This document shows, piece after piece, positions 34,611-59,656 of a stretch of 64,000 nt of DNA. Below the pieces are notes generated by a model, which saw only the letters and a list, made by a program, of their open reading frames with translations, ran no database searches and had not been told where the DNA came from. Position 1 is the first letter of the stretch. Each line of letters opens with the position of its first letter. Source of the stretch: Bryoerythrophyllum caledonicum (lineage: Eukaryota > Streptophyta > Bryopsida > Pottiales > Pottiaceae); assembly GCA_963971425.1 (NCBI GenBank), contig OZ020523.1, forward strand, positions 16,302,867 to 16,366,866, in the 5' to 3' direction. A program made the position numbers and the translations under genes.

Positions 34611-34993
34611 CTATGGGTGCGTCGTGCCTATGAGTTCCCGGACGTATACCTCCTCCCGCATGCCCCAGGGAACTTCGAGCAAACCCTCGTAGCCCATTGT
34701 CTTCAGGCTCGATTTCAGTAAGTTATACTCGTCCATGTCTTCGGGAATATCCGGAAGAACGCGGGCCAAGGGTGGGAGCACAACTGCCGGCTCTTCGTCT
34801 CTCCGGCCGCGCCCATCCCTATCCGTCCTCTTCTTCTTGGCCATCGGAACATTCTTCGTGGGAATTCCTATCACCTCACAGTCTCTCAAGGTAGTCCCTG
34901 CACACACCGACCTTACAAAAGCTCTCCCTAACGAACGCACGTCCGTTTTAACCGTCTAAGCTTCAAACCCTAACGGCCAACAGTTAGAAAACC

Positions 34994-35066
<73 letters not shown>

Positions 35067-35428
35067 AAAATCCTAATGCGGAACCCCAACACGCGAGGAA
35101 GAAATGGAGAAGAAAGAGTTTTCCCTCCGAACCCGAGCCTTAAGTAGTCCGGCCGTTAGTATGGCATCATGATGATAGTTGATGGTGACCTTTCCGGCTG
35201 ACGGTTCCGGATAATTGAATGCCCCATAATTCCGGTTCCTACTCCGGCTCTGCATTTAACAGTTTTAGGCTTAATTAGGGTTTATAGTCCGGCCCATCAG
35301 ACTTTAATATTGCATCAAGACTATAGGTTGTATCCTAACATGAATTATCGCAACTAATTAACTAATTTTTTTGTTTTGGCCGGAATTTAAGGTTAACTTC
35401 CGGCACCATGTGGGAATGGAGTCCCACA
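34611..35428 (-). mobile_element. Truncated retroelement fragment, copy 1 (minus strand)
   Basis: On the minus strand the fragment begins at 35428 with TGTGGGACTCCATTCCCACA, then TGGTGCCGGAAGTTAACC (primer-binding-site-like). A leader of about 500 bp follows, then an ORF (34940-34611) coding MAKKKRTDRDGRG and a block ending in MGYEGLLEVPWGMREEVYVREL. It breaks off near 34611. The leader and ORF are clearly related to 35429-36660. Confidence 0.7.
34997..35059. repeat. (GA)n microsatellite
   Basis: About 31 uninterrupted GA dinucleotides, expanded from a short GAGAGA tract that is also present in the related copy at 36281-36304. Confidence 0.97.
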
Positions 35429-36660
35429 CTCTGGAAGTTAAGGATTTCGTCATACTTCCAGATTTCGCCAGAGTTAGCTACTGGTGGTGAGCATAGAGGT
35501 GCACCACATACGAGGCCACAGGTGTAGCTGATTTCTCCACCTTCTGGAGATTGGCTACGAGCCGGTTGATCAGCTCAGTCATCAACGTTCCCCAGTCGAT
35601 GACGATCTTTCCCTAGAGTGTTCCGAGGAAAGCGCAGGCCCACTTCGCCACCACCTATCTCGGCTTTTCCGGATGGAAGATAGGGTTTAAAAACCCTAGC
35701 ACTAGCTGGGCATCCAGATGCTGAAGGTCTTGGAGGTTGTAGCCATCCTTCAGGTCAGCTGGTCCTCCGAATTCCTCCGCCAGAAACTCGTCCCGCAGTT
35801 CCACCACCTTGGTGTGGCCGGGCCGGAAATCGTACGCTAGAGACCACTCCGGGACTCCCCAGACTTCCAGATGGGCTCTCATCAGCCCCTTATGTTTCTC
35901 GTCTGGGGTGCCTACAAGTTCCCGGACGTAAACCTCCTCCTGGATGCCCCAGGGAACCTCAAGCAAACCCTCACAACCCATATACTTTAGGCTATCCTTC
36001 AACATGTTGAGTTCGTCCGCGTCTTCTGGGAATTCCGGGAGGACACGGGTTAAGGGCAGGAGTGCAACTGACGGCTCCTTGTCTCTCCAGACGCGCCCAT
36101 CTCTGTTAGTTCGCTTCTTCTTGGCCACGGAGACCGTCTTCATCGAGTTGACCTATGTCCTTACTTTCTCTCAATGTTGTCCCTGCACGCACCGTCCTCG
36201 CCAAAACTCTCCTTAACGGACGCATGTCCGTTCTAACCGTCTAAGCTCTAAATCCTAATGGCCAGGAGTTAGAAAACCGTAAGAGAGAGAAGGGAGAGAG
36301 AGAAAGTGTTGGGCAGAACCTTAACATGCGTAGAAAAAATGAAAGAAAGAGTTTTCCCACCAAACCCCAGCCTTAAGTAGTTTGGCCGTTAGTACGGCTC
36401 ATAATGATAGTTGATGGTGTCAGCTCCGGCTTTAGATTCCGGATAACTGACTATCGCGGGATTCCGGTAATTGCTCCGGCTCCGCTTTTAACAGCTTTAG
36501 GCTTAATTAGGCTTTGCTGACTGGCCCATCCGACTTTATTCTTACATCAAGGCTATAGGCTGTATTCTAGCACAAATTCTCGTAACTACTTACTAATTTT
36601 TTTTGTTTTGGCCGGAATTTATGGTTAACTTCCGGCACCATGTGGGAACGAAGTCCCACA
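35429..36660 (-). mobile_element. Truncated retroelement fragment, copy 2 (minus strand), inserted in the methyltransferase gene
   Basis: The minus-strand left end at 36660 reads TGTGGGACTTCGTTCCCACA, then TGGTGCCGGAAGTTAACC, the same layout as copy 1. Its plus-strand right boundary abuts the cytosine methyltransferase sequence of the outer element directly, so it interrupts that gene near motif I. The other end appears cut by copy 1 at 35428. Confidence 0.7.
35438..36143 (-). pseudogene. Retroelement ORF of unknown function, copy 2
   Basis: Minus frame 36143-35655 codes 162 residues starting MKTVSVAKKKRTNRDGRVW. It includes LKYMGCEGLLEVPWGIQEEV and ends LNPIFHPEKPR at a stop. Past the stop, the same frame continues to resemble the longer copy at 38701-40314 (VIDWGTLMTELINRLV versus VNWAIIVKEVVLRLA), with more stops. 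The function is unknown. The weak resemblance to plant transposon-protein domains is a guess. Confidence 0.6.
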
Positions 36661-36918
36661 ATTGGTAGCTGTTTTACAAGCTGGGATGAAAGTTAAGCGC
36701 TTCGTTTACGTGGATGTGGATGAAGCAGCAAGGCATGCGGCCAAACGTCACACACGGAGACTGAGAACACAATTTCCAGAATTGTTGGCCACTAGTGCCA
36801 TCAAAACTTCTTTCTCTACACTTGTGGGTGATATTTCCTTGCTATCGGACGATGACATTCACCGTGTGGGTCATGTGGACCTTGTCATTACAGGATGGCC
36901 TTGCCAATGCATGTCTAT
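36661..36918 (+). pseudogene. Cytosine-5 DNA methyltransferase domain, N-terminal part (motifs II-IV)
   Basis: Open plus frame beginning LVAVLQAGMKVKRFVYVDVD, just after where motif I should lie. It continues with a VGDISLL stretch (motif III-like) and DLVITGWPCQ (motif IV with the catalytic Pro-Cys). In DNMT3/DRM enzymes this Cys attacks cytosine C6. The frame runs into the insertion at 36919. After the insertion the same domain resumes at 44414 in register. The motif I glycine-rich loop is missing because of the element ending at 36660. Confidence 0.82.
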
Positions 36919-37150
36919 TGTCGTAGTACGCGTTGGCAAGTATTCACATCTTAACACAAAAGATACCCTAAGGTATTCGTTCCTACAGAGAATCCTCGTG
37001 AACTACAACGACTAATAACAAGCCTATAACCATACAGTACTATATTCACCACAATTATTACATAACAAGACAAAGGAAGAAAGATAAATTACAAAGGTTA
37101 GACTTAGTTACACCAAAGCTTCATTCCCCATTACCAAAAAGGAGGGAGGT

Positions 37151-37302
37151 ATCCTCACTGCGGTCCTCACTACGATCCTCACCGGGTTTCCTCACTGCGG
37201 TCCTCACTACGGTCCTCATTGTGGTCCTCACTCGGTTTCTTCACTGTGGTCTTCACTGCGGTCCTCGCTGGGTTTCCTTACTGCGGTCCTCACTGGGTTT
37301 GG
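37151..37302. repeat. Minisatellite of GGTCCTCACT-like units
   Basis: Irregular 12-18-bp units built from CACTGCGGTCCT and GGGTTTCCT words, about ten in all. It lies near the end of the middle insertion. Confidence 0.8.
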
Positions 37303-38700
37303 ACGGGCATGACTTTACTCTATGTACACTATAGACATCCAGGTACTTTCGTATCCAGAGAAGGTTTTTCACCATGAACAAGGGTTCATGGACTCAAAGA
37401 GATTTTAGTATTTGACACAAGTAACAACTACTCTTCCTCCCATTCTCTCCTTCTAACTCTACTCACTCACTTGGATGGATATGGTATCAGTGAGATTCCC
37501 CCGAAGGGATGTTAGACCCGTGTTTCCGAAACTACGAGGTGCGTAATGTAAGTGAACAAGGGGCCTACCCGCCCACTATTCGTCCTCCTCCTAGTCTCCC
37601 TCCACATCCAATGCGGCTGGAGGTAAGATGTTTCAGGGGCCGGCCTGAGCCCTCACAATCGACGCCAATCTGACGCTGGAAGGTCACTCAAGACTCGCTG
37701 GGACCCTTACACATCCGTCACTCCCCCCTCGTCCTCCCCTATCCACTTGTAATCTCACCTATTATTCCCATCCACCCGGACTATTCTACTTGATGAAACA
37801 ATGAACAATCACAAAGGTCAGAGTTAGAGTCCCGCCCGACTAACCACCTACCCGTCTCACCTTTATTCCCATCCACCCGGACTAATCTACTTGATGGAAC
37901 AAGGAAACAACGACTTAGACGGTTAATACGGACTTGAGGAGTGGACTACTTGAAATGGTACTCACAGTCATATAGAATCCGAGCTCTCCCAATCATAGAA
38001 GGTTTTCAGAGAGCGTAGGTTTAGAATTAAACTGAAAGCAAAATACACACAACAAGCAGTTAAGAGAGGTGCCCCGAGGCTCCTCACTTATACTGCAGCA
38101 AACACACAGAAGCGTCCAAACACAAAGGATGCCTTCTACTAAACCCGGCAGCATTAACTACCCTTGACGGCGCAGTCACCGTCCACCAACTCTACGTGCA
38201 AAGTGAAAGGCATCTAAACACAAATCCCAAGGCAAAACCAAGTCAAATCCACATTCAACTTGGGGCCAAGTCCAAGAGTGAACAGTAACCAACAAACAAA
38301 GAATCTGACCCTACTTCCAGGTCAACTCCTCAAGTCTTCTCTTCTCTTCCCTCCTCTTCCGCTTTTTCGCGCTCTTGCTCGAAGTCAAGAGAGCCGCGGC
38401 CGTCGCGAGCGTCCCAAGAGGGGATAACATATTTGCGGATGAAGAGGGTGCCGAATCGGCCATGGATGACCGAGGCAAGCCCTCCATCGAAGTCAACGTG
38501 GCATCCGGGCCACCTGGAGTGAGTAGCACAGAAGTAGTGCCCTGGTGGGGCTCAGACCGGGCCGGAAGGACTGGTACCTAGCTCGGAGTCCCAATGAAGA
38601 CCTCCTGAATAGATGTGTGTCCCAACTTGCCCTCAGTCCATATTGGAAGGTGCAAGAAAGCTGAGCTCTCACTAGTGGTCTTCCCGAAAGGAGACATACC
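37303..38700. other. Non-coding part of the middle insertion
   Basis: No protein recognised. A segment around 37765-37915 contains two direct copies of a roughly 45-bp stretch with CCCATCCACCCGGACTA. The rest is unassigned. Confidence 0.45.
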
Positions 38701-40314
38701 CTACAAAGGGGCAACGGTCGATGTGGTGCGACCGGGGTCTCCAAGGAAAAACTGGCGAGGAAGAGCCGTGCGCGGAGGCTCCATCGTCGCACCCGTCCGC
38801 TCCTTCCTCACACTTTGTACCTGTGTGGTGATATCTGAAGGGGAATGGCAGGCAGTGACTCCCACAAGCGGAGTCCGTGAGGACAGAACCGGGCTATCCA
38901 GATCAATCACACCCTTCCCCGTTGGAAGGTCTTTGTCACCCGAGTCTTGCCTCTCCGAATCAGCCTCCGAACCAGAATCGTCATCTTGGCTCGCGCCATC
39001 AGCTTCCTCCACAATCTTGGGCAGGATATGGGTGAGGTTACTCACCAACATCCGCATGTTAGCACAAGCTGTCTCTAGCTTCACTGTCTGCTCCACCATA
39101 AAAGCGATTACCCTCTTGCTGGAGATATGGCCATCTCTCTCCAACTTGGCATCGAACATCTTGGCCTTCAACACTGCATCCGCTGGAAAGTACAAGGCCT
39201 CCTCCACCTGCTGTAACACTGATGCTCAGGCGTTGGCTTGGAGACATGCCTCCTTCCAACCCTTCTCTGCCTCCAACGCCCGACTCCTCACGTTGGCCAT
39301 GTCGAGGTTGAGCCGATCCACCTTCTACTCCATGATGCGGAGGTCACTAGCACCTCCCATCTTCTCCTTGACTGCTGCCACCAATCCATGGCTAGGTGGA
39401 TTGCCCACCAAGCCACTCACTTGCCCCAACGTCCTCTCCACGTCGTCCACATACACCCGGAGAGCCTCTACCAACTCGGAGGCCTTGTAAGTCTTACCTC
39501 CAAGTAGAGCTGAATCGGTGGCTGCTGCTCGAATAGTTGCACGGGTGCGCGTGGAAGGAGCTCCACCTTGGTGTTGCCTCTGTCGCTCGAGGGGTGGTGG
39601 TGCCTCCTCGTCTGACTGGGATACGCTGCTCCCTCCCTCCGATCCTGGCTCGTGCTCTGACTCCGTTCCCTTGAACTTCCTCAATATGAGTTGAGTTCCA
39701 TACACCACATCCTCATCCGAGGTGGTCTCCTTGAAATAGTGATAGAGATGGATCAGGAATGGACAGATGGGAGAACGCTTGGTACTCCCCGCACTCTTGG
39801 CCAACCTCAGCACTACCTCCTTCACGATGATGGCCCAGTTCACCATCCTCTCCCCCAGGTAAGCTCCATACAATGTGTTAGCCAAAGTGACGGTGACCCG
39901 GGTGGGTCTCTCAGGGTACAAGATGGGTACAAGGAATGAGAAGACCCGTCTGGCACGGGGGTCCACGCAGTCTTGCAATGCGTAGCCGTTCTTGGCGTCC
40001 TTGGCCCCGAACCTCCCCTTGGCATACTCCTCCTTCTTCAAACCCGTCCACCCCGCGCCCTGGCGTGGAAATCCGTACACCTCCTGCCACCTCCCCATGG
40101 TCCACCGTTCAGGGCAAGCGCGGATACTATCTCCCTCCGACTCTGGCAAGGGGTCCTGGCGCAGCTCCTGTAGCGTGGACTCGATACAAAATCCCCAGCA
40201 AAACTCGATGAGAGAGAGACATCCCATGTGGAGAAGGTCCTCTTTGAGCTCCATGAGCTCAAGAAGATCCTTTGGGACAAGAGAGGAGATATCTCTTACT
40301 ACTGAAAGAGCCAT
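38701..40314 (-). pseudogene. Retroelement ORF of unknown function, longest copy
   Basis: One minus frame from the ATG at 40314 to 38701 (538 codons), broken by stops at 39327-39325 and near 39226. The first part (MALSVVRDISSLVPKDLLEL, LLHMGCLSLIEFCWGF, FSFLVPILYPERPTRV, VNWAIIVKEVVLRLA) is the same family as the ORFs at 34611-34940 and 35655-36143. The last 170 residues look coiled-coil-like (VEEALYFPADAVLKAKMFDA) with an acidic Ser/Asp-rich tail. A structural (gag-like) role is possible from position and coiled coil, but nothing proves it. The frame also stays open upstream through the minisatellites to 41010; that extension is repeat-derived. Confidence 0.6.
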
Positions 40315-40414
40315 GCTTTTGCTCGCACAGGTCCTGCTCCGGCCTTCTTCTCTCTTCCTCGGTTTGTACCTCGCCTGAGAGGTCCGCACTCTCCCGGTGA
40401 GGTCCTGCCGGTGA

Positions 40415-40725
40415 GGTCCTGCTGGTCTTGCTCGTCGTGAGGTCTTGCTAGTCGTGAAGGTCTTGCTGGTCTTGCTCGTCGTGAGGGTCCTACTGGTATT
40501 GCTCGTCGTGAGGGTCTTGCTGATCTTGCTTGTCGTGAGGGTCCTGCTGGTCTTGCTTGTCGTGAGGGTCCTGCTGGTCTTGCTCGTCGTGAGGGTCCTG
40601 CTGGTCTTGCTTGTCGTGAGGGTCCTGTTGGTCTTGCTCGTTGTGAGGGTCCTGGTGGTCTTGCTCGTCGTGATGGTCCTGTTGATCTTGCTCGTCGTGA
40701 TGGTCCTGCTGGTGCTGGTCTTGCA
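40415..40725. repeat. 27-bp minisatellite
   Basis: About ten to eleven copies of a 27-bp unit containing GTCGTGAGGGTCCTGCTGGT followed by CTTGCTC. Because 27 is a multiple of three, the minus strand stays open as a nine-residue repeat (TSKTSRTLT). Confidence 0.92.
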
Positions 40726-40744
40726 GCTGCTAGGGTTTCCGACT

Positions 40745-41010
40745 TTTAGGTTCCGTTCCGAGGTTCCGCTCCGAGGTTCCGCACCCAGGTTCCACACCCA
40801 GGTTCTGCACCAAGGTTCTGCACCCAGGTTCCGTACCAAGGTTCCGCTCCAAGGTTCCGCACCCAGGTTCCGTACCAAGGTTCCGCTCCAAGGTTCCGCA
40901 CCAAGGTTCCTCACACAGGTTCCGCACACAGGTTTTGCACCAAGGTTCCGCACCAAGGTTCCGCACACGGGTTTCCGCACACAGGTTTCGCCCACGGGTT
41001 TCCGCACCAA
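40745..41010. repeat. About 15-bp minisatellite (AGGTTCCGCACCCAGG type)
   Basis: Many head-to-tail copies of AGGTTCCGCACCCAGG-like units, open in several frames. Related GGGGTTCCGCTCC units recur at 44040-44100, across the solo LTR, showing that both sides belong to one element. Confidence 0.88.
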
Positions 41011-41355
41011 GGTTTCCGCACTTGAGCTCGTGTTCAGCCTCCGGTACCTTGGCCCGCTAGTCCCAGCTATGTGAAGTTCTTCGCCTTCCTTCGCGAGGTC
41101 TGGCTTCTAGGCGGCCGGTCTTCCGCACCTGCTCTGTGCACAGGCTCCGCACGTTGGCCGCTGAGTGTCTCCCCTTGGTCGCCGAGAGCTCCCTCGCACA
41201 GGGTTCCGTGTCTGCTTCCTCCTCTGAAAGCTTCCGCTCCTTGCAGCCCTCGTGCAGTATTCCGCCCTCGAGCCGACCTTCCCGGTGAGGTCCGCACCTT
41301 CTTGGTGTGGTCCGCACCGCCTTCCTCTCATAGCAACTGCGAATGCCCGCTCCGC
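41011..41355. other. GC-rich leader of the middle insertion
   Basis: Continues at 43799 once the solo LTR is removed. Open frames on both strands reflect composition; no domain recognised. Confidence 0.45.
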
Positions 41356-41589
41356 TGTCGTGATGTAAATAACTACAGTATGTAAAAAAATAATGTAGAT
41401 GCAAAAAGTGTGGTCGTAGAGTTACCTACAGTTTAATTCAATGTGGGAACAATTGGAGCTTGTTAGCCTAGCTTGGATGTACTACATCTGTCACTCTAGC
41501 TTAGGGGTAGGTAGGTGGCTAGTTGGCTGCTTATTTTCCTGCTCTCACTAGCAAGTGCCAAGCCGTAGCCGCCCGAACAGTTCAACGAG

Positions 41590-41695
41590 CTCAATGAGAC
41601 TCGAACTCGGAATCAATCGGCGGATAACAAACGGGCTCTAACAGCCAACCAAGTCTGCAACTTGGCGATTATCATCGAGTCCACAATAGTTTTAT
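41590..41695 (-). repeat. tRNA-like segment in the solo LTR (antisense)
   Basis: On the minus strand TTGGCTGTTAGAGC resembles a tRNA D-arm/A box, and CCGAGTTCGAGTC, about 30 bases further, resembles a T-arm/B box. Corresponds in position to 48090-48185. Arms pair imperfectly, so it is not called a tRNA gene. Confidence 0.5.
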
Positions 41696-41955
41696 ACTGC
41701 TACTGATAAATCGTTTGTTTCTTAATCTGGCTTTACTGTGGACCTTCTTTTAGTTGGAAAGGCATCTATGGCTACTTAAATTTGCTTAACCGTTTACTAT
41801 TAAAGAAATGTCATTGAGTTAATGTTAGGGAAGGCAAGCTTCTTGATGAAGTTATCGAAAAACATATAAAGGGTAGATGGTTGCCGTGCCTTATGCATTA
41901 CTTCAGGTCATTATTACTTTGGATTGTTTCTTCTTATTTTCTATAGGTTGATAAT

Positions 41956-42388
41956 ATGGCTTCTCAAGACCCTGATGATTGGGAGTTTCCTTTAGCTCAC
42001 TCGCCGGATGATCTAATTCAACTTTCTCAACCATCAACATCAAGGCGGTGTGAGCGAGAGGAAGTAGGGCCTTCTGAGCGTCGTGTTCAACCACGTACCG
42101 CTTTTGATCCTCAACAAGTTCCTTTGACAAGTTTAAGAAGTTTACAACCGGAGGCAAGAACTTTAGTAATCGTCTTGGAGGTTGGAGATGTGCTTATCGA
42201 AGGCCATTAAGTGGTGTTTGAAGGGTGTTTTCAAAACACTAACGAAGGTCAAATGGTAACCCGCTTATTCAATGACCTTGGTCACCGTCTTTGGCTTCAA
42301 GGCCCGCTCAGACACTTGGGTAGTGAAAGGCGAGCAAGTTACATTGTTGTTGTTCTTCGTGAGATTCTTCACTTTTTACATATTTAAT
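41956..42388 (+). pseudogene. LTR-internal ORF, diverged and broken copy
   Basis: Starts ATG at 41956 (MASQDPDDWEFPLAHSPDDL). After PEARTLVIVLEVGDVLIEGH there is one in-frame TAA, after which homology to the 48398-48856 ORF continues (VFEGCFQN, LQGPL, VVLREILHFL against IFEGLND, LEGPI, ALILQRILKFL). Function unknown. Shared order and shared hydrophobic and charged positions across two diverged LTR families argue that this ORF was once a conserved protein. Confidence 0.65.
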
Positions 42389-44413
42389 CCATCTTGGGGT
42401 TGAAATTGAGACCATTTGTTGTTATTTTTCTTAATATATTTGTAGTTAGTTGTTGTTGTTGAAGAAACCCGATCTTTAGATTGATGACCAGGTAGTTAGT
42501 GTTTAAAAATGCAAAGAATAGAAGGGATAGAGGGATGATAAGAGTTGATAAGGGGGAGAATTTGAGCAACCAATGGGGTTTAAGATGCCCATGTGGCCTT
42601 TGAATGGGCTGAGGTTAATTGTGATTGGCTCCTTTTCCCGTTTTGGGGGTTGAGTTCTTCTTACCAAGGAGGGGCTGGACTGCGGGGGCTCTCTCTAGTT
42701 GTGTTTGTTTTAGTTTGTTTTGGATTTTGAGTATGTTGTAGCTCTTGTTGTTAGCTCTCTATGAAGCTATCACTCGGTCTTAGAGCTAAAATTATGAGTG
42801 AACGGCGCCTTGTTGAACACAAGGGGGTCTGATGCCCCATGTTTTCATGAGCAGTAGGTTTGAAGCCTTGTAGCAAGTTGTACAAAGTATATCTAAATGA
42901 CATCTTTGGTGAGTGTTTGTACACTGTAAATAGCTTTTCAAAGAGCTATCTTATGCTCTATTTCAAGCTTTTGTGAAGTCATAGCACTAGTTTGAAAGAA
43001 GAGGGGTCAGCTGATTTGAGTTTTTGTAAGAAGTAACTTTGATTGCACATAGCGGCTGGCCAGATGGGTTTTTGGAGGTGAAATTTGATGTGTTTGTGGT
43101 GTATTTTAGTGGCTTTTCAAGTAGCTATAGCACGACTCATTTCAAGTTTGTATGAAACCGTAGTGGTATTTTGAATTAGAAGGTTAATAAGGACTTTAAA
43201 AGAGAGTTTGAGTTCGGTTTATACTTAATGAGAGGTTAGAGAAATGATTTCAAAGAGAGTAAGGGTATATAGGAGAAGGGTATGAAGTGGTTAGGATATG
43301 TAAGGGTAAGGGTATGTGGGATTGAGGTTAATTAGGAAATTAATTATCTTAATCAAGGTTAATTGTGTTAAGTAAGATTAACTAGTCTAATTGTAATTAA
43401 TTAGCTTAACTAAGATTAAGTGGATTAATTAAGGTTAATCATATTATTTAAATATAATTATTTTAACTATTAATTAGTTATTATTAAGTTAAATTAGTTA
43501 ATTTAATCAGAGTTTAATTAAGGCTTGATTTTTATTCAGGATAATTAATGTTTTGAGTTAAGTTTTTGGGAGACAAGTTCTACAAGACATCTGCATCATG
43601 TCTTATTATATGTACATCGAGTTTTATTATACAAGTTGAAGATTGGAGGCCTTTCTCGTATGCTAAATGAGGACTTATGAGTTTATATGGGCTTGAACAC
43701 AAAATTATATGTTCCATATTCTCCCTTTCCTTTTCTAAACTAAGTGCAGCCAAGAACCCTGCGTTTTCCTGAAGCAAAGACTCTGTACACGACACCGCTC
43801 TCCCTACCTTGCTCTTCGTGGTGAAATCATGCGCCTCCCTCGCTCTTGCTTTCGCCCTTCCACTCCCAGCTGCTGCTCCGCGCCCTTCGTCTTTCATGCG
43901 GACAGGTAGAGTTTCTCACACGGCCTTGGGGTATCCGGGCACGGCCTTGGATCCAACCTCCCGGTCATCATTTCGGCTGTAGGTGTTCCTCGTCTTCGTC
44001 TTGGCCGTGTGGAGTTCCTCTCCGAGTCTTCCTCACACCGGTCCGCTCCGGGGTTCCGCTCCGAAATTCCGCTCCGGGGTTCCGCTCCGGGGTTCCGCAC
44101 TGAGCTGTTGACTTCCTGTTTGACTGATCTTTGTGGAGCCTTTTACCCTGAGTTGGGGTACCCAGTTGCCGCCATTTGAGATTGATCGGTTGCCTCCAGC
44201 TTGGAAATCGAAGATGAGGCTCTAAGTTAGGTTCGGGCTTCAGGGTCTACTTTATCATTTTTAAGGATCCTAGAGTAGCCTTTTATTCCTCCAACCTTAA
44301 TTCTATCTAACGGCTAATTCTGGCGTAACTAATCCGCCAAATTAATCTAATTGGTCTATGTTAATCATCCCTAACTATCTAACTAAAAAAAATTAAAAAT
44401 TTGTGGTACGACA

Positions 44414-47400
44414 TCTATGGCAGGCAATCAGAATGGGTTAAAGGACTCCCATTCTTCTAGGTTCTTTGACATGATTCAAGTACTTCGGTTGTTTCAAACT
44501 TCTCAGAGGCAACCGCCTGGTTATATTATAGAGAACGTGCCCGTGATGAGCAGTTCGAGGTTTAGGACACTCGAGAGTATGCACAGAACCCATCACACTC
44601 TGGATTTGCCAGTGTTAATTGATGCGGCTAGAATAGAGTCCAGAGCACATAGACCACGCTTACAGTGGACAAACCTGGCACCAGCAGAGTTGTTACAGTC
44701 CACGGTGGATCGCATTAAACGCCCAGATGTATATGTAAGTGATATTTTGGATCCTTATAGGACACCACGGCGCGTGTATCACGATGACCAAGCACCATTA
44801 GCGGTGGTTAATCGCAAGGAGGAACCACGTAGGGCCTTGCCCACGTTGGTTAATTTTGCATGATCTTATGCTTTCAAGGATAATAGACCTGGGCTTGTAT
44901 AGGATTCATTGTCCCAGGAGATGGTGGAGCCTAATGCAGATAAGCGGGAAAGAGCCATGGGCTTTCCCACTGGCACCACCGATGTGCCTGGGATTTCAGA
45001 AGCACAGAGACGATTTTTACTTGGTCTGACAATGGATTTAAATTGTCTGGCTTGGATTGTGTCGTTAGTGGTTGCTAAACATAAGCATTTAGCTTGTAAC
45101 TTGACGAGTTACATGGATTATTATGAGTTGCGGGCAGTAGGAAAACCATTTGCCACTGTCAGGGTAACAAGCAAGGTGGTTGGGGGCGAGAGGGCCTTTG
45201 CACCTCATCCATGGAATATGTGGGATACCGCAAATATTTTTGCGACCACCAAACCAACAGATCTTCACTATGGAGGGGAGAACAGGAGTGAAGGGAGCAG
45301 ATTGGTTCACCAGAGGATAGATTTGGAGGATGTTGTGGAGAAGATCTTCTTCGAAGAGCACACAGCTCTTCACATGGAAGAAATTGACAAACTTGATCAA
45401 TTGGAAGGACTTGGGAGCGTTATTGGAGACGAAGGAGAGGAATCTCTTTCACATAGGATTCAATAGCAACCAAGGGTGGAAAACCCTAGTCCAAAGGAAC
45501 CGAAGGAGGTGGTGATTAATGACACTTGGAAACCAAGAGTAGGCATGGCGAATGGAGCAGTGGAGGTGGAGGAACATGAGTTCCTAAAGGAGTATTTAGA
45601 TTGTTTTGTTTTCAGTTTACATGATTTGGGAGTGTTGAAGGGGCAAAAAGTACGTATTAATTTAATCAACAAAGCACCAATTTATCGAAAGCCATACAAG
45701 TATAGCGACATGGAGCGAAAGATGATTTGTGCTCGCATAGAAGAATTGATGGCTGCAGGGTTGGTGGAGTTAGTTCCTCCAGATTGTTAGTATGCATCAG
45801 CATCGGTTATGTCATCCAAAAAGGACATATATGGTAATTGGACTGAGACAAGGATGTGTGGTGACTATAGGAGAATTAATAAATTCACTAAATCAAACCG
45901 TTATGCCATGCCAACTTCGGAGGAGAACTTTGAGGCCATTGGTCATGCCAAAGTATTTAGTACGTTAGATCTACACTCTGGATACCACCAGATTGGATTG
46001 AGAGATGAAGATAAGGAGAAAACCGCGTTCTGGGGCATTAACAGAGATGGGAAGGACCGGTTGTTTCAATGGAAGTTTTTACCGTTTGGATTGAAGAATG
46101 CTCCAGCAGAATTTCAGAGGATTATGGACAGAGTATTTTCGGGATTGGATTTTGTGAGATGCTATATTGATGACATCATTGTCTTTAGCATGAATCGAAA
46201 GCAACATAGACTACACTTGATGGAGGTTTTTGCTAGATTGAAGCTCCATGGATTAAAGTTGCACCCTGGTAAGTGCAAATTCTATTTTGATCGCATCGAG
46301 TATTTAGGCCATATGATTTATCCAAGTGGATTAGGTGTGGTAGCTAGCAAAGTGGAAGTAGTGATGTCTATTCTTAGACCACAAGATGTTAGTAGGTTGA
46401 GAGCATTTCTGGGGTTGTATAACTATGATAGAAAGTTTGTCAAAACTTTCAGTGTTATTGCCAAGCCATTAATCATGTTGACAAGGAATGATCAACCTTG
46501 GATCTGGGTAGATGAGCAAGAGGCGGCCTTTCAACAATTGAAAGACCGTTTGGCATCAGCACCAATACTTCGGAGGCCTATAGTAGGAAGAACGTACCAG
46601 CTACACACAGATTGGAGCTCGTTGGGGATTGGTGCAGTATTGACGCATATGGATGATGATGGCAAGAAATTTGTGATTATGTATGCTAGCTGGTCTAACA
46701 ACAACGCTAAGGCTCAATATAGTTTGTTCAAAGGGGAATATTTAGCTGCCATGTGGGCAATTGCTCATTTATGGTAATGAATTTCTATTAGTACAGATCA
46801 TCTGCCTTTGAAATGGTTGATGGAGTCTGATAAGTTGACAAGAAAATTGACACGGTGGGCCTTGATGTTGATGGAGTACAACTTCAAGGTGATTCATAGG
46901 GCAGATTTGATAAATATAGATGCTGATGGCCTTAGCCGTAATCCAATTCCAAACCAAGAGGATGATACAGGTGCTAGGTGGCATACTAAAGGTGAAACCG
47001 ACCCGTTGCCAGGTTGGTATTGTTCGGGATTTCTGGGGATATTAGCAATGAATGGAGACACCATCGAGGAAGCTATTGTGGCCACAGTAGATGAGAATGG
47101 AAGTAAAGAGTCTAGGGGTGCCAGAGACATCCATGAAGATACGAATGTGATGCAGTTCTTAAAAGATGGAGAGGCAGTGGCTTCATGGTCTCATAAAGAG
47201 AGAGATCGGGTTCTACAACGAGCTAAGAGGTTTGTGTGGAAGAGGACTCACCTTATGAGATTGTGGCCAGATGGTACTAAGAAGGTAGTACCAGCTCCAA
47301 TAGAGAGAGTGAAACTGATTAAGGACACACATGAGGACCTTGTACACTTTGGAGTGCGGAGGATTTATAGTCTACTTCATATTCACTATTGGTGGCGTGG

Positions 47401-47821
47401 AATGCAATCCCAAGTGCAAGCTTTGGTGGCTCGATGTATGGTATGTGACCGGGTAGGAGCTTCTTTTAACGCTCCAATGCCACAGTTACAACCTTTGCCA
47501 ATTATGGGCTTAGGATATAGATGGAGCTTGGATTTTGCAGGTCCATTGCCAGTGACACCTCGACACAACAAGTATATGTTGGTAATCATCGAGCATTTCT
47601 CGAAATGGATAGAGTTAGTGGCATTGCCTGATAAGTTCAATGAGGGGGGCACTTATTTATTTCTTGACCGTGTTCTGAGTCACTTTGGAGCTCCAGCAGA
47701 GGTACTCAAAGACCAAGGGAGAGAATTCTTGGGTGAGTTTCAGACGTTCTATGAGCAAGCGATGATTGATCATCGCACTACTTCGAGGGATCACCCCGAA
47801 ACAGATGGATTGGCGGAGCGC
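44414..47821 (+). pseudogene. Methyltransferase C-terminal part fused in frame to Ty3/gypsy RT, RNase H and integrase
   Basis: One plus frame (same register throughout) with stops at 44861, 44900, 45464, 45788, 46775 and 46778. 44414-45080: rest of the cytosine methyltransferase, with the Glu-Asn-Val motif VI (YIIENVP), DAARIESRAHRPRLQWTNLA (the DNMT3/DRM target-recognition/motif VIII-IX type block) and ERAMGFPTGTTDV followed by a motif X-like helix. 45080-45470: unassigned linker. 45480-46250: reverse transcriptase with FSTLDLHSGYHQI and the catalytic YIDD. 46590-46880: RNase H. 47320-47821: integrase HHCC finger (HEDLVHFG, CMVCD), WSLDFAG, LKDQGREF and HPETDGLAER, where the next insertion lies. 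I see no protease or gag. The stops make it non-functional. Confidence 0.88.
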
Positions 47822-48089
47822 TGTCGTGTAAAGAAACGGTTTAATATGTAAATACAGTGTGAAATGGATTGAGAGTAGTGTTCAGAGCAAATAGAAATAA
47901 AACTAAGGAAAATAAAAGTATAGACAAAAGGGAGGGGGGAGATCAGAGGAATGAAGGGGGAAGAGAAAGGACCGTGGTTTTAACCACGAAACTTGGAGTC
48001 TCTGCATCTTCTCACATGCTCAGGGGAGGTAGGTGGCGCCAACTGGTAGTTTCCTGCCTAGATTCACTAGCAGTGCCAAGCCACGTGGC

Positions 48090-48185
48090 CATTCGCATGC
48101 TCATACGGGTCCAAAGGGTTTCGAACCCGGACCAGTGCTATGGCGCTTGAAGCACTTTACCAGTTGGACTTCCGCGGCTTGGCGA
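48090..48185 (-). repeat. tRNA-like segment in the 5' LTR (antisense)
   Basis: On the minus strand AACTGGTAAAGTGC resembles a D-arm/A box. GGTCCGGGTTCGAAACC, about 30 bases on, matches the T-arm and the pol III B box (GGTTCGAAACC at 48128-48118). It is present again in the 3' LTR at about 56787-56882, and diverged in the solo LTR. Acceptor-stem pairing is not convincing, so this is tRNA-derived rather than a functional tRNA gene. Confidence 0.55.
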
Positions 48186-48397
48186 TTATCAGAGCATGCT
48201 GAAGGGATTTATATCTCTATCCATTATTTTATATTTTTATTTTATATTTTATTTGAGTGGATTTGATTGGAGAAAAAGAGATCACATCTTTGAGAAAGCT
48301 TCAAGGTGACGCCTTCTACAAAGTATTTGTGTTATAAGAAGAAGGTTCATTTAGAGCTTCATCAGTTTTATGTAGTTGTTTTGAATTTTTTTTGGAC

Positions 48398-48856
48398 ATG
48401 TCGAATTGGAGAGTTTTTTCTGAGTCTCAGGATGAAGAGCTTCAACCAGAGCTTGAGGTAGATTTATCTTTATCTCAACTGCCGGTTTGTACTCTTTTGC
48501 CGCTTAGTCTTGCACCACTGCATGAGCGTCCACAAGAAGAAGCTGGGCCTTCTCGGCCGCCAAAGCAACCTCGTGTGGAGCAGCGGTGGCACGGCAATCT
48601 TCAACAAGATGCTCGTGCCCTGGTGATTCTATTACAGGTTGGGTGTGTTGAACCTGGTACTCGAGATGTGACGTTTGGAGGGATTTTTGAAGGCCTAAAT
48701 GACAATCAATACTCTTGTTGTCTTAGGCCTGTCAAAGGGAGTCGCGGTCATCAACGTTGGCTTGAAGGTCCAATTAATCCTTTGACCAAGGCTGATCGTG
48801 TTGACTTTATTGCTCTTATCCTTCAACGCATCCTCAAGTTCTTGCAGATGGAGTGA
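48398..48856 (+). CDS. LTR-internal ORF of unknown function (5' LTR copy)
   Basis: ATG at 48398, 152 residues. N-terminal half is acidic and Pro/Ser-rich (ESQDEELQPELEVDLSLSQL, EEAGPSRPPKQPR). The C-terminal half looks folded: ARALVILLQVG, FGGIFEGLND, GHQRWLEGPINPL, ADRVDFIALILQRILKFL. No known domain recognised. LTRs rarely encode proteins. A diverged homologue occupies the same place in the solo LTR of another family (41956-42388), which supports real coding. It would be expressed from the element's own promoter or, in the 3' LTR, read downstream. Role unknown; an accessory protein is a possibility. Confidence 0.6.
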   Translation: MSNWRVFSESQDEELQPELEVDLSLSQLPVCTLLPLSLAPLHERPQEEAGPSRPPKQPRVEQRWHGNLQQDARALVILLQVGCVEPGTRDVTFGGIFEGLNDNQYSCCLRPVKGSRGHQRWLEGPINPLTKADRVDFIALILQRILKFLQME

Positions 48857-50270
48857 AGTTCCTCTTGAAATTCTTTTCAAGCTCTTTTAGACATATATTT
48901 GATTTTATTTGTTTAGTTTTTAATGTTTCCAAACTTCACCTTGCATGTTAGAAGTTTGGTAGATGAAAGGTAGAAATAGTTTACCATTTGGTAGACTTTT
49001 GATGCCTTATGGCTAAGATAAGGGATAGATAAGGTTGAAGTAAGCTTAAGGGAGTTAGCCAATGACTAGTTGAGGCCCATGAGGCGTAGGTATGGGCTGG
49101 TGTTGACTTTGGGGGGAGGCAAAGGGGTCGGGTTCCCCTCTCTCCTCCTGGAGAGGGGAGTTTTTTTCGGTGTGCAGTTTTTAGAGAGCAAGAGCTCAGT
49201 GTGTACTACGATTTTTATTATGAGATTTTGGGAGCTTGTACATCTTGTCGTTGTGGTTTCATAATGATATAGCACGCTCTATTTGAGCTCTTTGTGTAAT
49301 TTCTATGAGTGTTTGAGTGGGACAGTGTCTGCTGTGAAGAAATTTAGAAGACCGAGACTTCAAAAGCTTGTAGAAACTTGTTTATAGTGTTTTTGTTTAT
49401 GAAATTTGAGCAAGTCAAGTGTTATTGTGTTAGTTTTCTATGGAGCTTTATAACTTTTTATTTAGATTGTTTGAGACAAAGTTATGGCTTTGAAAGTGAG
49501 AGGGTGTTGAGCTACCGACTAAATTCAAGAGTGGAAGTAGGCACCAACTTCAACTGAGCATAGAAAACGTTTGGTATAGATTCTGAAGACGAATTTTGTA
49601 GAGAGCTTAGGTGGTGTTATTAGCTTTCTAGGAAGCTATCACTCGGCTTTGGCAAAGCTTGTATGAAGTCAGAGTGCTCTGTGAAGCAAAGGGAGGTGCA
49701 GCTGATGCTGGATTTGGGAGTACGACCTTTGACGAGCTATGGACTCTTGGCAGTACCTTGTAGAGCTTTAATCTTTCTTTCTCTCTGTTAAGCACTTTGA
49801 TAGCTTTCCAAAAAGCTAATGCACTCTTGATTTGAAGTGTTTATGCTAATTTGGTGGTTATTTGAAGTTTGGCTATTATTTTAGAGGGAGATTCGGGATT
49901 TTGAAGGTATGTACAAAACTTATACGGTTTTGTATACGGTAGATCGTATTTATACTTTGTACATGTATGTATAAAAGTATTATACTTGTATGTATAAATC
50001 ATGTATCCGTATAGTATTTTCTACTGTATTTATACATGACAAATACAAGTATTAAAGTACTCTACATGTACGTATAAAAATACTCTACGTATACGGATAG
50101 GAATACTCTACGTATACGTACAAAAAAGGTATAGGTACAAGTATGTATACATGATGTGTTCAAGGATTAATACTTCTTATATTATCCTTGTCTTTCATGT
50201 CTTAAGCCAAAACTAATTGCAGCAAGAAATCCAGTATTTTCCCAAGGCAAAGACTTCTCTACCCGACATT

Positions 50271-50288
50271 TGGTGCTTCCACTGAGAG
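50271..50288 (+). promoter_or_regulatory. Candidate primer-binding site
   Basis: TGGTGCTTCCACTGAGAG lies two bases after the 5' LTR. It starts with TGG, complementary to the CCA end of a tRNA, as expected for minus-strand priming. The tRNA species was not determined. Confidence 0.6.
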
Positions 50289-50321
50289 TAGCTTTGGGGC
50301 ATTGGTTTTGGTTGAAGCAAG

Positions 50322-52919
50322 ATGGGAGACACGGTTCATGATAAGGAGTTTGGGGGTGGTTCTCGGGAGCCTGGCGAAGGTTCAAATGTTGCTGGAGAGT
50401 TTTTGAGAGCCATGCAGATGCTTATGGATCAGCAATCTGCTAATGCTACGGGACAAGGGGCTACTAAAGCATTGAGGGATGTTATTGGGAAGGTGGGAAG
50501 GTTTGATGGGAAGAATATCACTAAGTTCTTGAGGATCTACACTTGTGAAATGGAAATCTATCAAGTTCCAGAGATCAGGATGATTGAGACCTTTGACTTA
50601 GCAGTTGTTCCAGAGATCAGAGAAAGAGTGAGGCAACTGCATGGGGATGTCCATGTGCATACATGGGCTAGGTTTGAAGAGAGGTTGAGGGATGAGTACT
50701 TTGATGAGGACTCAGAGCGGATGACAAAGGGAGCATTTCTTGAATGGGTGGAGCAACGGCCTGGAAAGCATATGGGACCAAGTGAGTTGCTTCGTGAGTT
50801 TAAGAGAAGGTTTGGCCAACTTCCATTGTCAGAGAGACGACTGATGGAAGCTCGGAAGTCTGAGATGTTTTTACAAGCCTCAGATGAAGCCTTAGAAGAT
50901 AGGCTTCTCATACTCCTTCAAGATGGAGGAGCAGAAGGCGGATTTACCACTGACTGGGAGAGGATGATAGGGTCAGTGAGTCTCATCTCTAAACAACAAC
51001 GTGTAAAGTCCAGGGGATTAGGCTCTAGAGTGGGCATTTCAGCTGTAACAGCTCCAAAGGTTCCAGTGTCATCAAGTGTACCTTTGACAACTACAACACC
51101 AGGGAATAGTTCCAAAGGGAGAGTTCTTGATGATAACACACTTGAGGAACTCATGAGGGGCATGAGGGAACTCAAGGTAGAGATGAATGCTCTTAAGAGG
51201 GATCAGAGGCCAAAATCCTCGGGGCCTTCGACGGGGCAAAGGGATTTTGTGGCGAGATGCATTTGGTGTGATGATCCCAATCACAAACGTGGTGATTGTG
51301 GATCATATGCAGATGCTATGAAGAGCGGCATTATAACTTTCAAAGAAGGAAGAATTAGAGATGCTGCAACAGATGAGCCTCTTCAGACTAACTTTGGGAA
51401 GGGAGGCATGAAGAGATTGATGGAAGAGAAGTTGGGAAGGAGCAATACTTCACGTGGAAAGGAAACAGAGACCTACACGATTGGAGCTGATTTTAGCACA
51501 ATCCAAGCTTCTACTTATGCATCTAAAGAGGTGATGGTCAGGGGAGCACAAACCATCAGAAGGTTGACTGGGTGGGATGATCCAGTGAATGCTACTACCA
51601 TCAGAGCCTATTTGATGAGTGAGAATGGGGAGAAGGAACCCCATGATGCATCAGTGGAAGTGAAGAGGGGCAGGGCTGTTGATGAAGGTGAATCTGAAGA
51701 GCCTGCAAACAAGAAGAAACCATCAAACAACAAAGATGCATCTTCAAAGGAAGGACCAACAACCAACACAAGGCAAAGGCAAGAGTCACCACCATATCCA
51801 GGTGAGAATACACCTTTACCCAAAGACAAGTGGGAAGAAAGAATGGGCAACAAGAAGGGAAAAGGAAAGGAGGATGAAGCTAAGGGAAAGAGTAAGACAC
51901 CAGCTTATAAACTCCAATCCGATATTGAATCTTCAGTGGATATGAAGGGCATTTTGGAAGAACGAATTTTGGATGCCAAGATAGAGTTTACTCTCAGAGA
52001 GGCTCTTGGCATAGCAAAGAAAGATTTTCATGAGCTTATCATTGATGTGATCAAAAGGAAGAGGCAGATGACAGCTGAAACAGTGATGACAAGGGCATTG
52101 GATACTTTGATGTCTAAAGAAGAAGAAGAGGAGATTGGACAAGTATTTGCCTTGAGCTGTGATAATGCAGGGAATGATGACCAGACTAAAAGACAGAGAT
52201 TTATGTCTCGAGAAACCCAAGATACCAAGGTTGATGTCATGGAGGAGGTTTTGAGTGATGAGGAGGAAGATGAAGTGTTGCAGATGTTTTTGAGTGATGG
52301 AGTGGTTGAGACAAAGGAGAGGAAGGATTCTATCAAGAATCAAAAGAAAATTGTCACAACAGAAGCCAAGGTTTTACGATGTGGAGCTGACAAGTCATGG
52401 ACACATGATAGTGAAGCCTTGGTAGCATTTACACATCCATTTTGGGCAAGAGCTACCACAGAGACACGTGTAAAGATTGGAGATATTGAGGAGCCAATCT
52501 TAGCATTGGTGGATCATGGCTCAGAGATCAACATTTTATCCCGGAAGATTTATGAGAAGGGAAAATGGCCAATTGACACCAATCATGGATGGGTATTGAA
52601 AGCTGCCAACAATGAAAGAGGCAACTTTTATGGAGCATGTCCAGCAGTGGCTATAAAGATTGGTGATGTGGAGGTGGAGCAAAACTTCTTTGTGCAAAAT
52701 CAAGGAAGCTATCCCATCATTTTGGGACAGCCATATATCACTGCAACAAGGATGGAGACCAAGGTATTGGATGATGGTTCACATTATGCCAGGATTCGTA
52801 GCCATGATGGTATGAGATCAGTTCAATTTCTCACAGTTAGACCAAATCATGAGAGGCATAGGGACAGACTCAGGGAAACTCCCATGGACTATGTCCATGA
52901 AGATTTTCTGGATTTCTAA
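50322..52919 (+). CDS. gag-pro: Gag-protease polyprotein of the nested Ty3/gypsy element
   Basis: 865 residues from ATG 50322, intact. The N-terminal 250 residues are helical and gag-like (LLREFKRRFGQLPLSERRLM is typical of retrotransposon gag). A CCHC zinc knuckle, CIWCDDPNHKRGDC, lies at about residue 313. A long charged region follows (Lys/Glu-rich, about 440-560). The aspartic protease near residue 730 reads LALVDHGSEINIL, with DHG where DSG or DTG is usual, and ends with PIILGQPYI. Gag packages the RNA; the protease matures the polyprotein. The frame ends at TAA 52917, just before pol in the -1 frame. Confidence 0.92.
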   Translation: MGDTVHDKEFGGGSREPGEGSNVAGEFLRAMQMLMDQQSANATGQGATKALRDVIGKVGRFDGKNITKFLRIYTCEMEIYQVPEIRMIETFDLAVVPEIRERVRQLHGDVHVHTWARFEERLRDEYFDEDSERMTKGAFLEWVEQRPGKHMGPSELLREFKRRFGQLPLSERRLMEARKSEMFLQASDEALEDRLLILLQDGGAEGGFTTDWERMIGSVSLISKQQRVKSRGLGSRVGISAVTAPKVPVSSSVPLTTTTPGNSSKGRVLDDNTLEELMRGMRELKVEMNALKRDQRPKSSGPSTGQRDFVARCIWCDDPNHKRGDCGSYADAMKSGIITFKEGRIRDAATDEPLQTNFGKGGMKRLMEEKLGRSNTSRGKETETYTIGADFSTIQASTYASKEVMVRGAQTIRRLTGWDDPVNATTIRAYLMSENGEKEPHDASVEVKRGRAVDEGESEEPANKKKPSNNKDASSKEGPTTNTRQRQESPPYPGENTPLPKDKWEERMGNKKGKGKEDEAKGKSKTPAYKLQSDIESSVDMKGILEERILDAKIEFTLREALGIAKKDFHELIIDVIKRKRQMTAETVMTRALDTLMSKEEEEEIGQVFALSCDNAGNDDQTKRQRFMSRETQDTKVDVMEEVLSDEEEDEVLQMFLSDGVVETKERKDSIKNQKKIVTTEAKVLRCGADKSWTHDSEALVAFTHPFWARATTETRVKIGDIEEPILALVDHGSEINILSRKIYEKGKWPIDTNHGWVLKAANNERGNFYGACPAVAIKIGDVEVEQNFFVQNQGSYPIILGQPYITATRMETKVLDDGSHYARIRSHDGMRSVQFLTVRPNHERHRDRLRETPMDYVHEDFLDF

Positions 52920-55900: not shown

Positions 55901-56476
55901 ACTGTTACAGGTTATATGCCCATTGAGTTGATGTTAGGCCAAAAGCCACTTATGCCTACAGAAGATTCAATACCTACTTGGATGTTGTTGGACTGGAACG
56001 ATGGCATTACAAGAGAAAGATTATTGGAGCTTAGAATCCAACAGCTTGAAAGATTGCCTGAGGACCATAGGATTGCATTGGAAAAATTGAAGGCTTCAAG
56101 GTTGAGCAACAAGGAGAGATTTGACAAGACACATCGGTTGAGATCAAAACCTATTGAAGTTGGAGATTGGGTGTTGGTATTTGATAGTAGTTTGGAACAT
56201 CAACACAGTACACTTAGAAAGTTTGCACGGAGATGGTTTGGGCCATATGTAGTGGTCACAGTGCATGAAAATGCTACCTATTCCCTTCGGGAGTTAGATG
56301 GCACACTATTGAGGATTCCTGTAGCAGGAAAACGGATCAAGGCATTCAGAAGGAGAGCCATAGGATTTGCTCTAGAAAATGACACAACTGATCCAAGACC
56401 ATCAGAAGATCAAGATGAAAAAGATGAAATATCAGATAATGATGGATTAGATGCAGCTGAAGAAGACCAAGACTAA
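52902..56476 (+). CDS. pol: Pol polyprotein (RT, RNase H, integrase) of the nested Ty3/gypsy element
   Basis: Intact frame, open from about 52902 and thus overlapping the end of gag-pro by roughly 18 bases in the -1 frame; the first TTG/ATG-type start downstream is at 53015. Translation through a -1 frameshift is likely but no canonical slippery heptamer is obvious. Counting residues from 53015, RT spans about 215-480 and has FVDD in place of YxDD at about 366. RNase H begins about 525 (VTVDTSPIAIGWAIG, with RELLGAL and ETDCLPLL). The integrase HHCC finger is at about 764-804 (GHRGVW, CIECQ), and the catalytic residues are in VIDLVAMP, RADRGEL and NGKSERGH. A C-terminal segment with WFGPYVV (GPY/F module) ends the protein. 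Confidence 0.93.
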
Positions 56477-56500
56477 ATTGGCACATACCGGTGGATGTGC

Positions 56501-56518
56501 AGGTTTGGAGGGGGTGGA
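56501..56518 (+). promoter_or_regulatory. Candidate polypurine tract
   Basis: AGGTTTGGAGGGGGTGGA directly abuts the 3' LTR, the position where plus-strand DNA synthesis is primed. It is not purely purine (TTT and a T interrupt it). Confidence 0.6.
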
Positions 56519-56786
56519 TGTCGTGTAAAGAAACGGTTTAATATGTAAATACAGTGTGAAATGGATTGAGAGTAGTGTTCAGAGCAAATAGAAATAAAAC
56601 TAAGGAAAATAAAAGTATAGACAAAAGGGAGGGGGGAGATCAGAGGAATGAAGGGGGAAGAGAAAGGACCGTGGTTTTAACCACGAAACTTGGAGTCTCT
56701 GCATCTTCTCACATGCTCAGGGGAGGTAGGTGGCGCCAACTGGTAGTTTCCTGCCTAGATTCACTAGCAGTGCCAAGCCACGTGGC

Positions 56787-56882
56787 CATTCGCATGCTCA
56801 TACGGGTCCAAAGGGTTTCGAACCCGGACCAGTGCTATGGCGCTTGAAGCACTTTACCAGTTGGACTTCCGCGGCTTGGCGA
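56787..56882 (-). repeat. tRNA-like segment in the 3' LTR (antisense)
   Basis: Second copy of the segment at 48090-48185, sequence unchanged. Confidence 0.55.
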
Positions 56883-57094
56883 TTATCAGAGCATGCTGAA
56901 GGGATTTATATCTCTATCCATTATTTTATATTTTTATTTTATATTTTATTTGAGTGGATTTGATTGGAGAAAAAGAGATCACATCTTTGAGAAAGCTTCA
57001 AGGTGACGCCTTCTACAAAGTATTTGTGTTATAAGAAGAAGGTTCATTTAGAGCTTCATCAGTTTTATGTAGTTGTTTTGAATTTTTTTTGGAC

Positions 57095-57553
57095 ATGTCG
57101 AATTGGAGAGTTTTTTCTGAGTCTCAGGATGAAGAGCTTCAACCAGAGCTTGAGGTAGATTTATCTTTATCTCAACTGCCGGTTTGTACTCTTTTGCCGC
57201 TTAGTCTTGCACCACTGCATGAGCGTCCACAAGAAGAAGCTGGGCCTTCTCGGCCGCCAAAGCAACCTCGTGTGGAGCAGCGGTGGCACGGCAATCTTCA
57301 ACAAGATGCTCGTGCCCTGGTGATTCTATTACAGGTTGGGTGTGTTGAACCTGGTACTCGAGATGTGACGTTTGGAGGGATTTTTGAAGGCCTAAATGAC
57401 AATCAATACTCTTGTTGTCTTAGGCCTGTCAAAGGGAGTCGCGGTCATCAACGTTGGCTTGAAGGTCCAATTAATCCTTTGACCAAGGCTGATCGTGTTG
57501 ACTTTATTGCTCTTATCCTTCAACGCATCCTCAAGTTCTTGCAGATGGAGTGA
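57095..57553 (+). CDS. LTR-internal ORF of unknown function (3' LTR copy)
   Basis: Identical in translation to the ORF at 48398-48856, as expected for the second LTR. No independent evidence of expression. Confidence 0.6.
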   Translation: MSNWRVFSESQDEELQPELEVDLSLSQLPVCTLLPLSLAPLHERPQEEAGPSRPPKQPRVEQRWHGNLQQDARALVILLQVGCVEPGTRDVTFGGIFEGLNDNQYSCCLRPVKGSRGHQRWLEGPINPLTKADRVDFIALILQRILKFLQME

Positions 57554-58932: not shown

Positions 58933-59061
58933 TGTATACATGATGTGTTCAAGGATTAATACTTCTTATATTATCCTTGTCTTTCATGTCTTAAGCCAAA
59001 ACTAATTGCAGCAAGAAATCCAGTATTTTCCCAAGGCAAAGACTTCTCTACCCGACAGCGC

Positions 59062-59637: not shown

Positions 59638-59656
59638 TCTCTCTCACATCTCTGTT

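Follow-up and report, generated by a model that had tools for sequence, protein, structure and literature searches.

In a stretch of 64,000 nucleotides from Bryoerythrophyllum caledonicum (assembly GCA_963971425.1, contig OZ020523.1, positions 16,302,867 to 16,366,866; hereafter the window, numbered from its first letter), the sequence identifies an old, broken copy of a Ty3/Gypsy-type retrotransposon that carries a DNMT3-type DNA methyltransferase (DNMT) ahead of its reverse transcriptase (RT). When an open copy from contig C4 (copy A) was used as BLAST query, the window copy fell into three pieces, which stand in order at 36662-36918, 44414-47821 and 59057-60274 and are 90.5-92.6% identical to copy A at the DNA level. 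The original prediction had placed here, at 36661-47821, a retrotransposon polyprotein with a methyltransferase fused in frame before RT, and the blocks that it named are real: PCQ, then IENVPV, DAARIESRAHRPRLQW, GFPTGTTDV, RT, RNase H and integrase, the last six within 44414-47821.

The first piece (36662-36918, plus strand; 91.8% DNA identity to copy A 8122-8378) holds the PCQ block, which we take to be motif IV, in the string VITGWPCQCMS. Whole copies have three open reading frames (ORF1 to ORF3), and the piece corresponds to ORF2 residues from 938 on, behind motif I, with a tblastn identity of 84.8%. Everything in ORF2 upstream of residue 938 is absent from the window copy, namely gag, protease and methyltransferase motif I; the copy lacks the initial 6.2 kb of the element, and the piece sets in where another repeat (34624-36660) stops. 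This neighbour abutting the truncated 5′ side is made up of two repeat copies, 34624-35428 and 35908-36660, which are about 75% alike, and the pair ends in TGTGGGA...TCCCACA.

What had been taken as the stretch of the element between PCQ and ENV is a nested insertion of 7.5 kb (36919-44413, strand unassigned), which lies inside the DNMT and outside the polyprotein. The matches flanking it overlap by 5 bases; it has the ends TGTCGTA...TACGACA with TCTAT on either side, and positions 44387-44413 are part of it. No long terminal repeat (LTR) pair was found in 36919-44413. The insertion contains a minus-strand open reading frame of 593 codons, which has runs of short repeats (40411-41021) and no Pfam match.

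The second piece (plus strand, 90.5% DNA identity over 44414-47821) begins with the rest of the DNMT, including the ENV, HRPRL and GFPTGTTDV blocks, and a spacer (44414-45463). At the boundary to RT stands an in-frame UAG in the context CAA-TAG-CAA-CCA (45461-45472, plus strand, with the TAG at 45464-45466), a codon that other copies share. RT, RNase H, the integrase zinc finger and most of the integrase core follow (45467-47821, plus strand; 87% tblastn identity to ORF3 residues 1-790), and Pfam recognizes RVT_1 (E 7.1e-32), RT_RNaseH, Integrase_H2C2 and rve in 44414-47821, while the window DNMT scores below threshold against DNA_methylase (19.4 bits, cut-off 22). Apart from the shared TAG, this frame contains stops at 44861 and 44900 in the DNMT, at 45788 in RT, and at 46775 and 46778 in RNase H. 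Thus, the pieces do share one frame, as had been proposed, but the frame is not open, being broken by these stops, and a conserved and probably leaky UAG parts the DNMT from RT.

Position 47821, where the element had been thought to end, coincides exactly with the boundary of a second nested insertion (47822-59056, plus strand), an ordinary Gypsy element of 11.2 kb with long LTRs that are identical over 2323 bp. It is very young, is flanked by a duplication of about 4 bp (GCGC) and has its own overlapping open reading frames of 867 and 1191 codons (50316-56476), with a DUF4100 Pfam match in the first. No DNMT was found in it, and its tblastn matches are confined to RT-integrase at 25% identity. 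Past this insertion the DNMT-bearing element resumes with the remaining ORF3, which comprises the integrase end and a degraded C-terminal PHD finger (59056-59809, plus strand; 87-88% tblastn identity to ORF3 residues 789-1041). Its right end is formed by a repeat, called B below (60043-60274, plus strand, ending in ...CACGACA; 93% identical to B of copy A), behind which the window copy has no second A-B repeat unit. Elsewhere in the window lies a host-like gene of the LEA_2 type (23661-24491, minus strand; E 1.6e-7), as would suit a streptophyte.

Other copies, their coding plan and their ends

On its own, the window copy is too broken to exclude that a host DNMT gene fragment happens to adjoin a Gypsy copy at this single locus, one of two outcomes that, according to the original prediction, would overturn it. 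A search of the same 437-Mb genome with the last 187 residues of the window DNMT frame gave 1215 candidates, of which at least 150 were scored as matches; these are 71-84% identical to the query, which was itself excluded, and several belong to a 1371-residue open frame. Every relative was found via its DNMT, and the sampling of copies is biased towards close matches to the query. Eight copies (A to H), seven of which were picked for the open 1371-residue frame, were read whole. The same DNMT recurs at the same place and in the same frame in many unlinked copies, among them all eight whole ones, and in two further families. The host-fragment explanation is therefore exceedingly improbable and was rejected; the methyltransferase is part of the retrotransposon, and the intact relatives that had been anticipated elsewhere in the genome do exist.

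The eight whole copies have a common plan, in which ORF1 is followed by gag, protease and DNMT (ORF2), an in-frame UAG, and RT, RNase H, a DDE integrase and a PHD finger (ORF3). In copy A, a leader of 2.4 kb, which on the coding strand has no more than short frames, separates the first repeat from ORF1. ORF1 has 216 codons and no Pfam match, is unbroken in six of the eight copies (e.g., L011:4562-5209) and is strongly constrained, with omega (dN/dS, the ratio of nonsynonymous to synonymous substitution rates) at 0.11-0.17 in six pairs. It overlaps ORF2 in a different frame, and inspection of the overlap by eye did not reveal a classical -1 slippery heptamer. ORF2 (1371 codons) is unbroken in seven of the eight copies, and ORF3 (1041 codons), which continues in the frame of ORF2, in three. 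In copy B, Pfam places a zinc knuckle and DNA_methylase of ORF2 above cut-off, as well as RVT_1, RNase H, Integrase_H2C2, rve and the C-terminal PHD finger of ORF3; the gag and protease matches are weak, that of protease falling below cut-off. With this caveat on protease, the domain order is the protease-RT-RNase H-integrase order of Ty3/Gypsy elements. The nearest solved relative (PDB) is that of yeast Ty3 both for RT-RNase H (4ol8, E 8.9e-73) and for integrase (7q5b, E 8.5e-22). Ty3 itself is not known to carry a DNMT or a PHD finger and is flanked by ordinary LTRs. A search for relatives in viral contigs returned nine pattern matches, none of which was confirmed.

The coding part is bordered by two kinds of repeat, A (about 374 bp) and B (233 bp), which are arranged as A-coding-B-A-B in seven of the eight whole copies and as A-coding-B in copy F. 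Hence, the coding part lacks the full LTR on either side that is expected of Ty3/Gypsy, and the split direct repeats are those of DIRS elements. However, DIRS elements use a tyrosine recombinase and make no target duplication, whereas Pfam finds an rve integrase and no recombinase here. All eight whole copies have the ends TGTC...GACA, i.e., of the TG...CA type, and all eight are flanked by 4-bp target duplications (TAGT, CCTC, GGGG, AAAT, ATGC, ATTA, GATT and CCTA), as is typical of Ty3/Gypsy insertion by a DDE integrase. The insertions show that the integrase joins TG...CA ends with a 4-bp duplication; taken together with the split repeats, this means DDE-type insertion by an element with DIRS-type repeats. 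Copy F retains its 4-bp duplication, and its shortened form is one that recombination between two B repeats would give. A tRNA primer site behind the 5′ repeat was not obvious on inspection by eye.

Seven of the whole copies possess two A repeats, which are 98.4-100% identical within a copy, and the lineage has therefore moved recently. The description of the window copy as the remnant of a once active lineage accordingly stands for the decayed copy itself, but not for the lineage.

In most copies, the sequence at the inner junction of B and A (B|A) is CACGACA-GC-TGTCAGG. With the middle two bases left free, and the spacing fixed at two bases so that junctions with other spacing go uncounted, the junction occurs 58 times genome-wide (GC 46 times, AC nine times, and GG, GT and AG once each) and the backwards control does not occur. 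The junction of the third family described below likewise reads CACGACA-GC-TGTCA. At G000:C12:23034658 and 23035263, two B|A junctions lie 605 bp apart, about one A-B unit, so that the element end here has an additional A-B repeat. The first B together with the second A (B1-A2) would store both of the ends missing from the RNA, and the palindrome GACAGCTGTC may represent a circle-like junction that the integrase could open.

The methyltransferase and the UAG that follows it

The DNMT contains, in order, the blocks FGGIGTG, WPCQ, ENV, HRPRL and GFPTGTTDV, which we take to be motifs I, IV, VI, VIII and X, and this is the unrearranged order of DNMT3. In an open copy, the Pfam match to DNA_methylase is clear (52.5 bits), and the solved structures rank DNMT3A first, followed by 3C and 3B and then HhaI, while DRM2 aligns over query residues 1-120 only. 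Of the DNMT3/DRM order that had been proposed, the DNMT3 part is thus borne out, and a DRM identity is ruled out by the unrearranged motifs and by DNMT3A as top solved relative. The assembly also contains a stand-alone, intron-free and bacterial-looking cytosine methyltransferase of 370 codons (L087, C14:16016358-16017317, minus strand), which matches nearly all of PF00145 (218 bits) and may stem from transfer or contamination.

The original prediction had suggested a dN/dS comparison across copies as a check. We aligned the DNMT and UAG region of 73 copies (60 fetched pieces, four loci from the DNMT genome search, the eight whole copies and the window), in 29 of which the segment is stop-free. 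Among pairs of stop-free copies with dS > 0.1, median omega is 0.19 for the DNMT (228 pairs) and 0.40 for the spacer behind it (94 pairs); among broken copies it is 0.26 for the DNMT (860 pairs). These values indicate that the DNMT is under purifying selection. The exact strings of motifs I, IV, VI, VIII and X are kept in 44, 62, 68, 58 and 42 of the 73 copies, respectively.

Further families extend this comparison. Between the family of the copies described so far (family 1) and family 2, the DNMT is 90% identical with an omega of 0.04 (at a dS of 1.76, near saturation), and omega is 0.06 for gag and 0.08 for protease. Family 3, of which one copy (L086) was compared, is 55% identical to family 1 in the DNMT, 57-63% in RT-integrase, 44% in protease, 32% in the region before the DNMT, 30% in the linker, 29% in gag and 22% in the spacer, and its DNMT keeps FAGIGTG, WPCQG, ENV, RPR and ERERAMGF. 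The simplest reading of these sequences is that a single DNMT capture preceded the split of the families of this genome and that selection has acted since. The PF00145 search of the genome from which families 1 to 3 were looked at (123 scored of 1055 candidates) also returned open frames of 1108, 1353, 1358-1364, 1517 and 1710 in length. To the right of copy B lies a decayed, much diverged DNMT retroelement copy (L012:4828-8656); its three pieces share 38-49% identity with family 1, and in appearance it is nearer to family 3. One family-2 copy, L085 (C14:16479200-16489199, reverse complement 5488-7245), has lost RT and RNase H through an in-frame deletion and retains gag, protease, DNMT, integrase and PHD finger. 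The RT-less moving family at which it hinted gained no support, as none of six other family-2 copies has the deletion at that place.

At the boundary between DNMT and RT, TAG is found in 71 of the 73 aligned copies, with CAG and GAG once each, and the complete 12-base context CAA-TAG-CAA-CCA in 62. The context changes at 1.3% per site as compared to 5.2% overall, and 1.8% of 12-base windows are as conserved. Genome-wide, the pattern GATTCAA-NNN-CAACCAAGGG has 135 matches and its control none; among the 100 matches listed, 98 have TAG, one TAC and one CAG. Family 2 has TAG in all seven copies seen, followed by CAACCA in six and by CAACCT in one, and family 3 has AAG-TAG-CAA-TCA in both of two copies. 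A UAG directly followed by CARYYA, as is present in all three families, has been described (PMC5382211) as the motif for type I readthrough in tobamo-, beny- and pomoviruses. In these viruses the signal lies within the replicase gene, whereas here the putative signal lies between gag-protease-DNMT and RT-integrase-PHD.

The conserved type I context suggests that a minority of ribosomes read through the UAG. It would then follow from the placement of the UAG that the DNMT belongs to the gag-protease product, and RT, integrase and PHD finger to a rarer readthrough product. The UAG could instead be the plain end of ORF2, with ORF3 expressed via reinitiation, splicing or a subgenomic RNA, and the overlap of ORF1 and ORF2 in different frames does mean that some other device is used at that point. 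However, ORF3 continues in the same frame and has no ATG in its first 81 codons (the first is codon 82 in family 1; in family 3 it is codon 117, with none in the first 116). Furthermore, the context belongs to the 1.8% most conserved windows, and CARYYA is matched in two families that share 22% identity in the adjoining spacer. A plain stop thus seems to us quite unlikely.

Known relatives and possible functions

A DNMT inside a Gypsy element is a kind of arrangement already known since 2018, when KnitGypsy-Dnmt3 was described in Klebsormidium nitens (de Mendoza et al. 2018, PMC5890265) with an intronless, unrearranged Dnmt3 in the Gypsy Pol reading frame, DIRS-like repeats and a Dnmt3 Ka/Ks below 0.2. 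The same paper describes SymbioDIRS-Dnmt3 of Symbiodinium, and DNMT3 within retrotransposons of streptophytes and dinoflagellates was mentioned again in 2025 (PMC12344493); the premise that retrotransposons capture methyltransferases was therefore sound. Our element resembles KnitGypsy-Dnmt3 in its intronless, unrearranged Dnmt3 before or within Pol, its A-coding-B-A-B repeats and its purifying selection. Unlike KnitGypsy-Dnmt3 as described, it has a UAG between DNMT and RT, a PHD-ended integrase and 4-bp duplications, and it occurs as several deeply diverged, many-copy families in one genome. The main text of PMC5890265 does not contain the words PHD or readthrough, and neither a Gag-side DNMT before a leaky-type stop nor 4-bp duplications were found in the text consulted, although the K. 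nitens element may share all of these features. SymbioDIRS-Dnmt3 is likewise similar in having Dnmt3 in an RT-bearing polyprotein with split-repeat ends, but it uses a tyrosine recombinase, as opposed to the DDE (rve) integrase and 4-bp duplications here. A limited literature search found no printed case of a PHD finger on an LTR-retrotransposon integrase, though published cases may exist; where the term did turn up, it named a host gene beside an insertion. Measured against that text of PMC5890265, what is added here is the Gag-side DNMT before a leaky-type UAG, the PHD finger and the 4-bp duplications.

We consider it fairly probable that these copies represent a recently active, multi-family Ty3/Gypsy-type element with split repeats, which captured a DNMT3-type enzyme that has since been selected, uses UAG readthrough, likely methylates its own cDNA and employs the PHD finger in the choice of chromatin. 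The gag-protease-DNMT polyprotein would end at the UAG, and the few ribosomes reading through it would add RT, RNase H, integrase and PHD finger. Made at the level of Gag, the DNMT would enter the particle, where it would most likely methylate the new cDNA of the element before or during insertion, and the PHD finger would probably help to choose chromatin. A more specific version, which we put forward tentatively and regard as rather doubtful, makes the element both a writer and a reader of chromatin: the DNMT in the particle would pre-mark the cDNA, the PHD finger would read histone H3 for the site, and the cDNA would pass through a circle-like B-A junction unlike that of an ordinary Gypsy.

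Several observations weigh against the main reading. Motif I deviates from the standard string in four of the 29 stop-free copies, and one whole copy has WPCL instead of WPCQ. In single pairs of family 1, omega ranges over 0.12-0.31 in the DNMT, 0.06-0.21 in gag and 0-0.20 in protease, such that gag and protease are constrained about as much as the DNMT or more, and the DNMT is not the tightest part; between close copies, omega in RT, integrase and PHD finger is noisy (0 to 0.78). CpG depletion, sought as a footprint of self-methylation, was not found in the seven whole copies examined, where the CpG value is 0.62-0.65 in the element and 0.44-0.73 in its flanks; a DNMT-less Gypsy has 0.37. In addition, the isolated KnitGypsy DNMT did not methylate in yeast, a result that its authors called inconclusive (PMC5890265).

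The lack of CpG depletion fits at least as well with a target other than the element. The DNMT might act on host DNA, by methylating the genome, rival elements or the insertion site, or it might tame the element to the benefit of the host, as has been discussed for such elements (PMC5890265). Its position within the gag-protease product suggests the particle instead, and we hold a host target to be unlikely. That same position, and the changed motifs in a share of the open copies, would suit a DNMT that binds nucleic acid or has a structural role, with catalysis irrelevant. This is very unlikely, given that families 1 and 3 share the catalytic motifs at a gag identity of 29%.

Why a genomic parasite carries the enzyme that usually silences parasites is a question that has stood since 2018. 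The fact that the DNMT is better kept than gag and protease between distant families, and stands before a conserved leaky-type stop, gives the question a testable form in terms of dose and place, namely that many DNMT molecules would be made per RT and would reside inside the particle. Furthermore, a Gypsy pol with a DDE integrase and target duplications that is nonetheless combined with DIRS-type split repeats bears on how elements with such repeats replicate.

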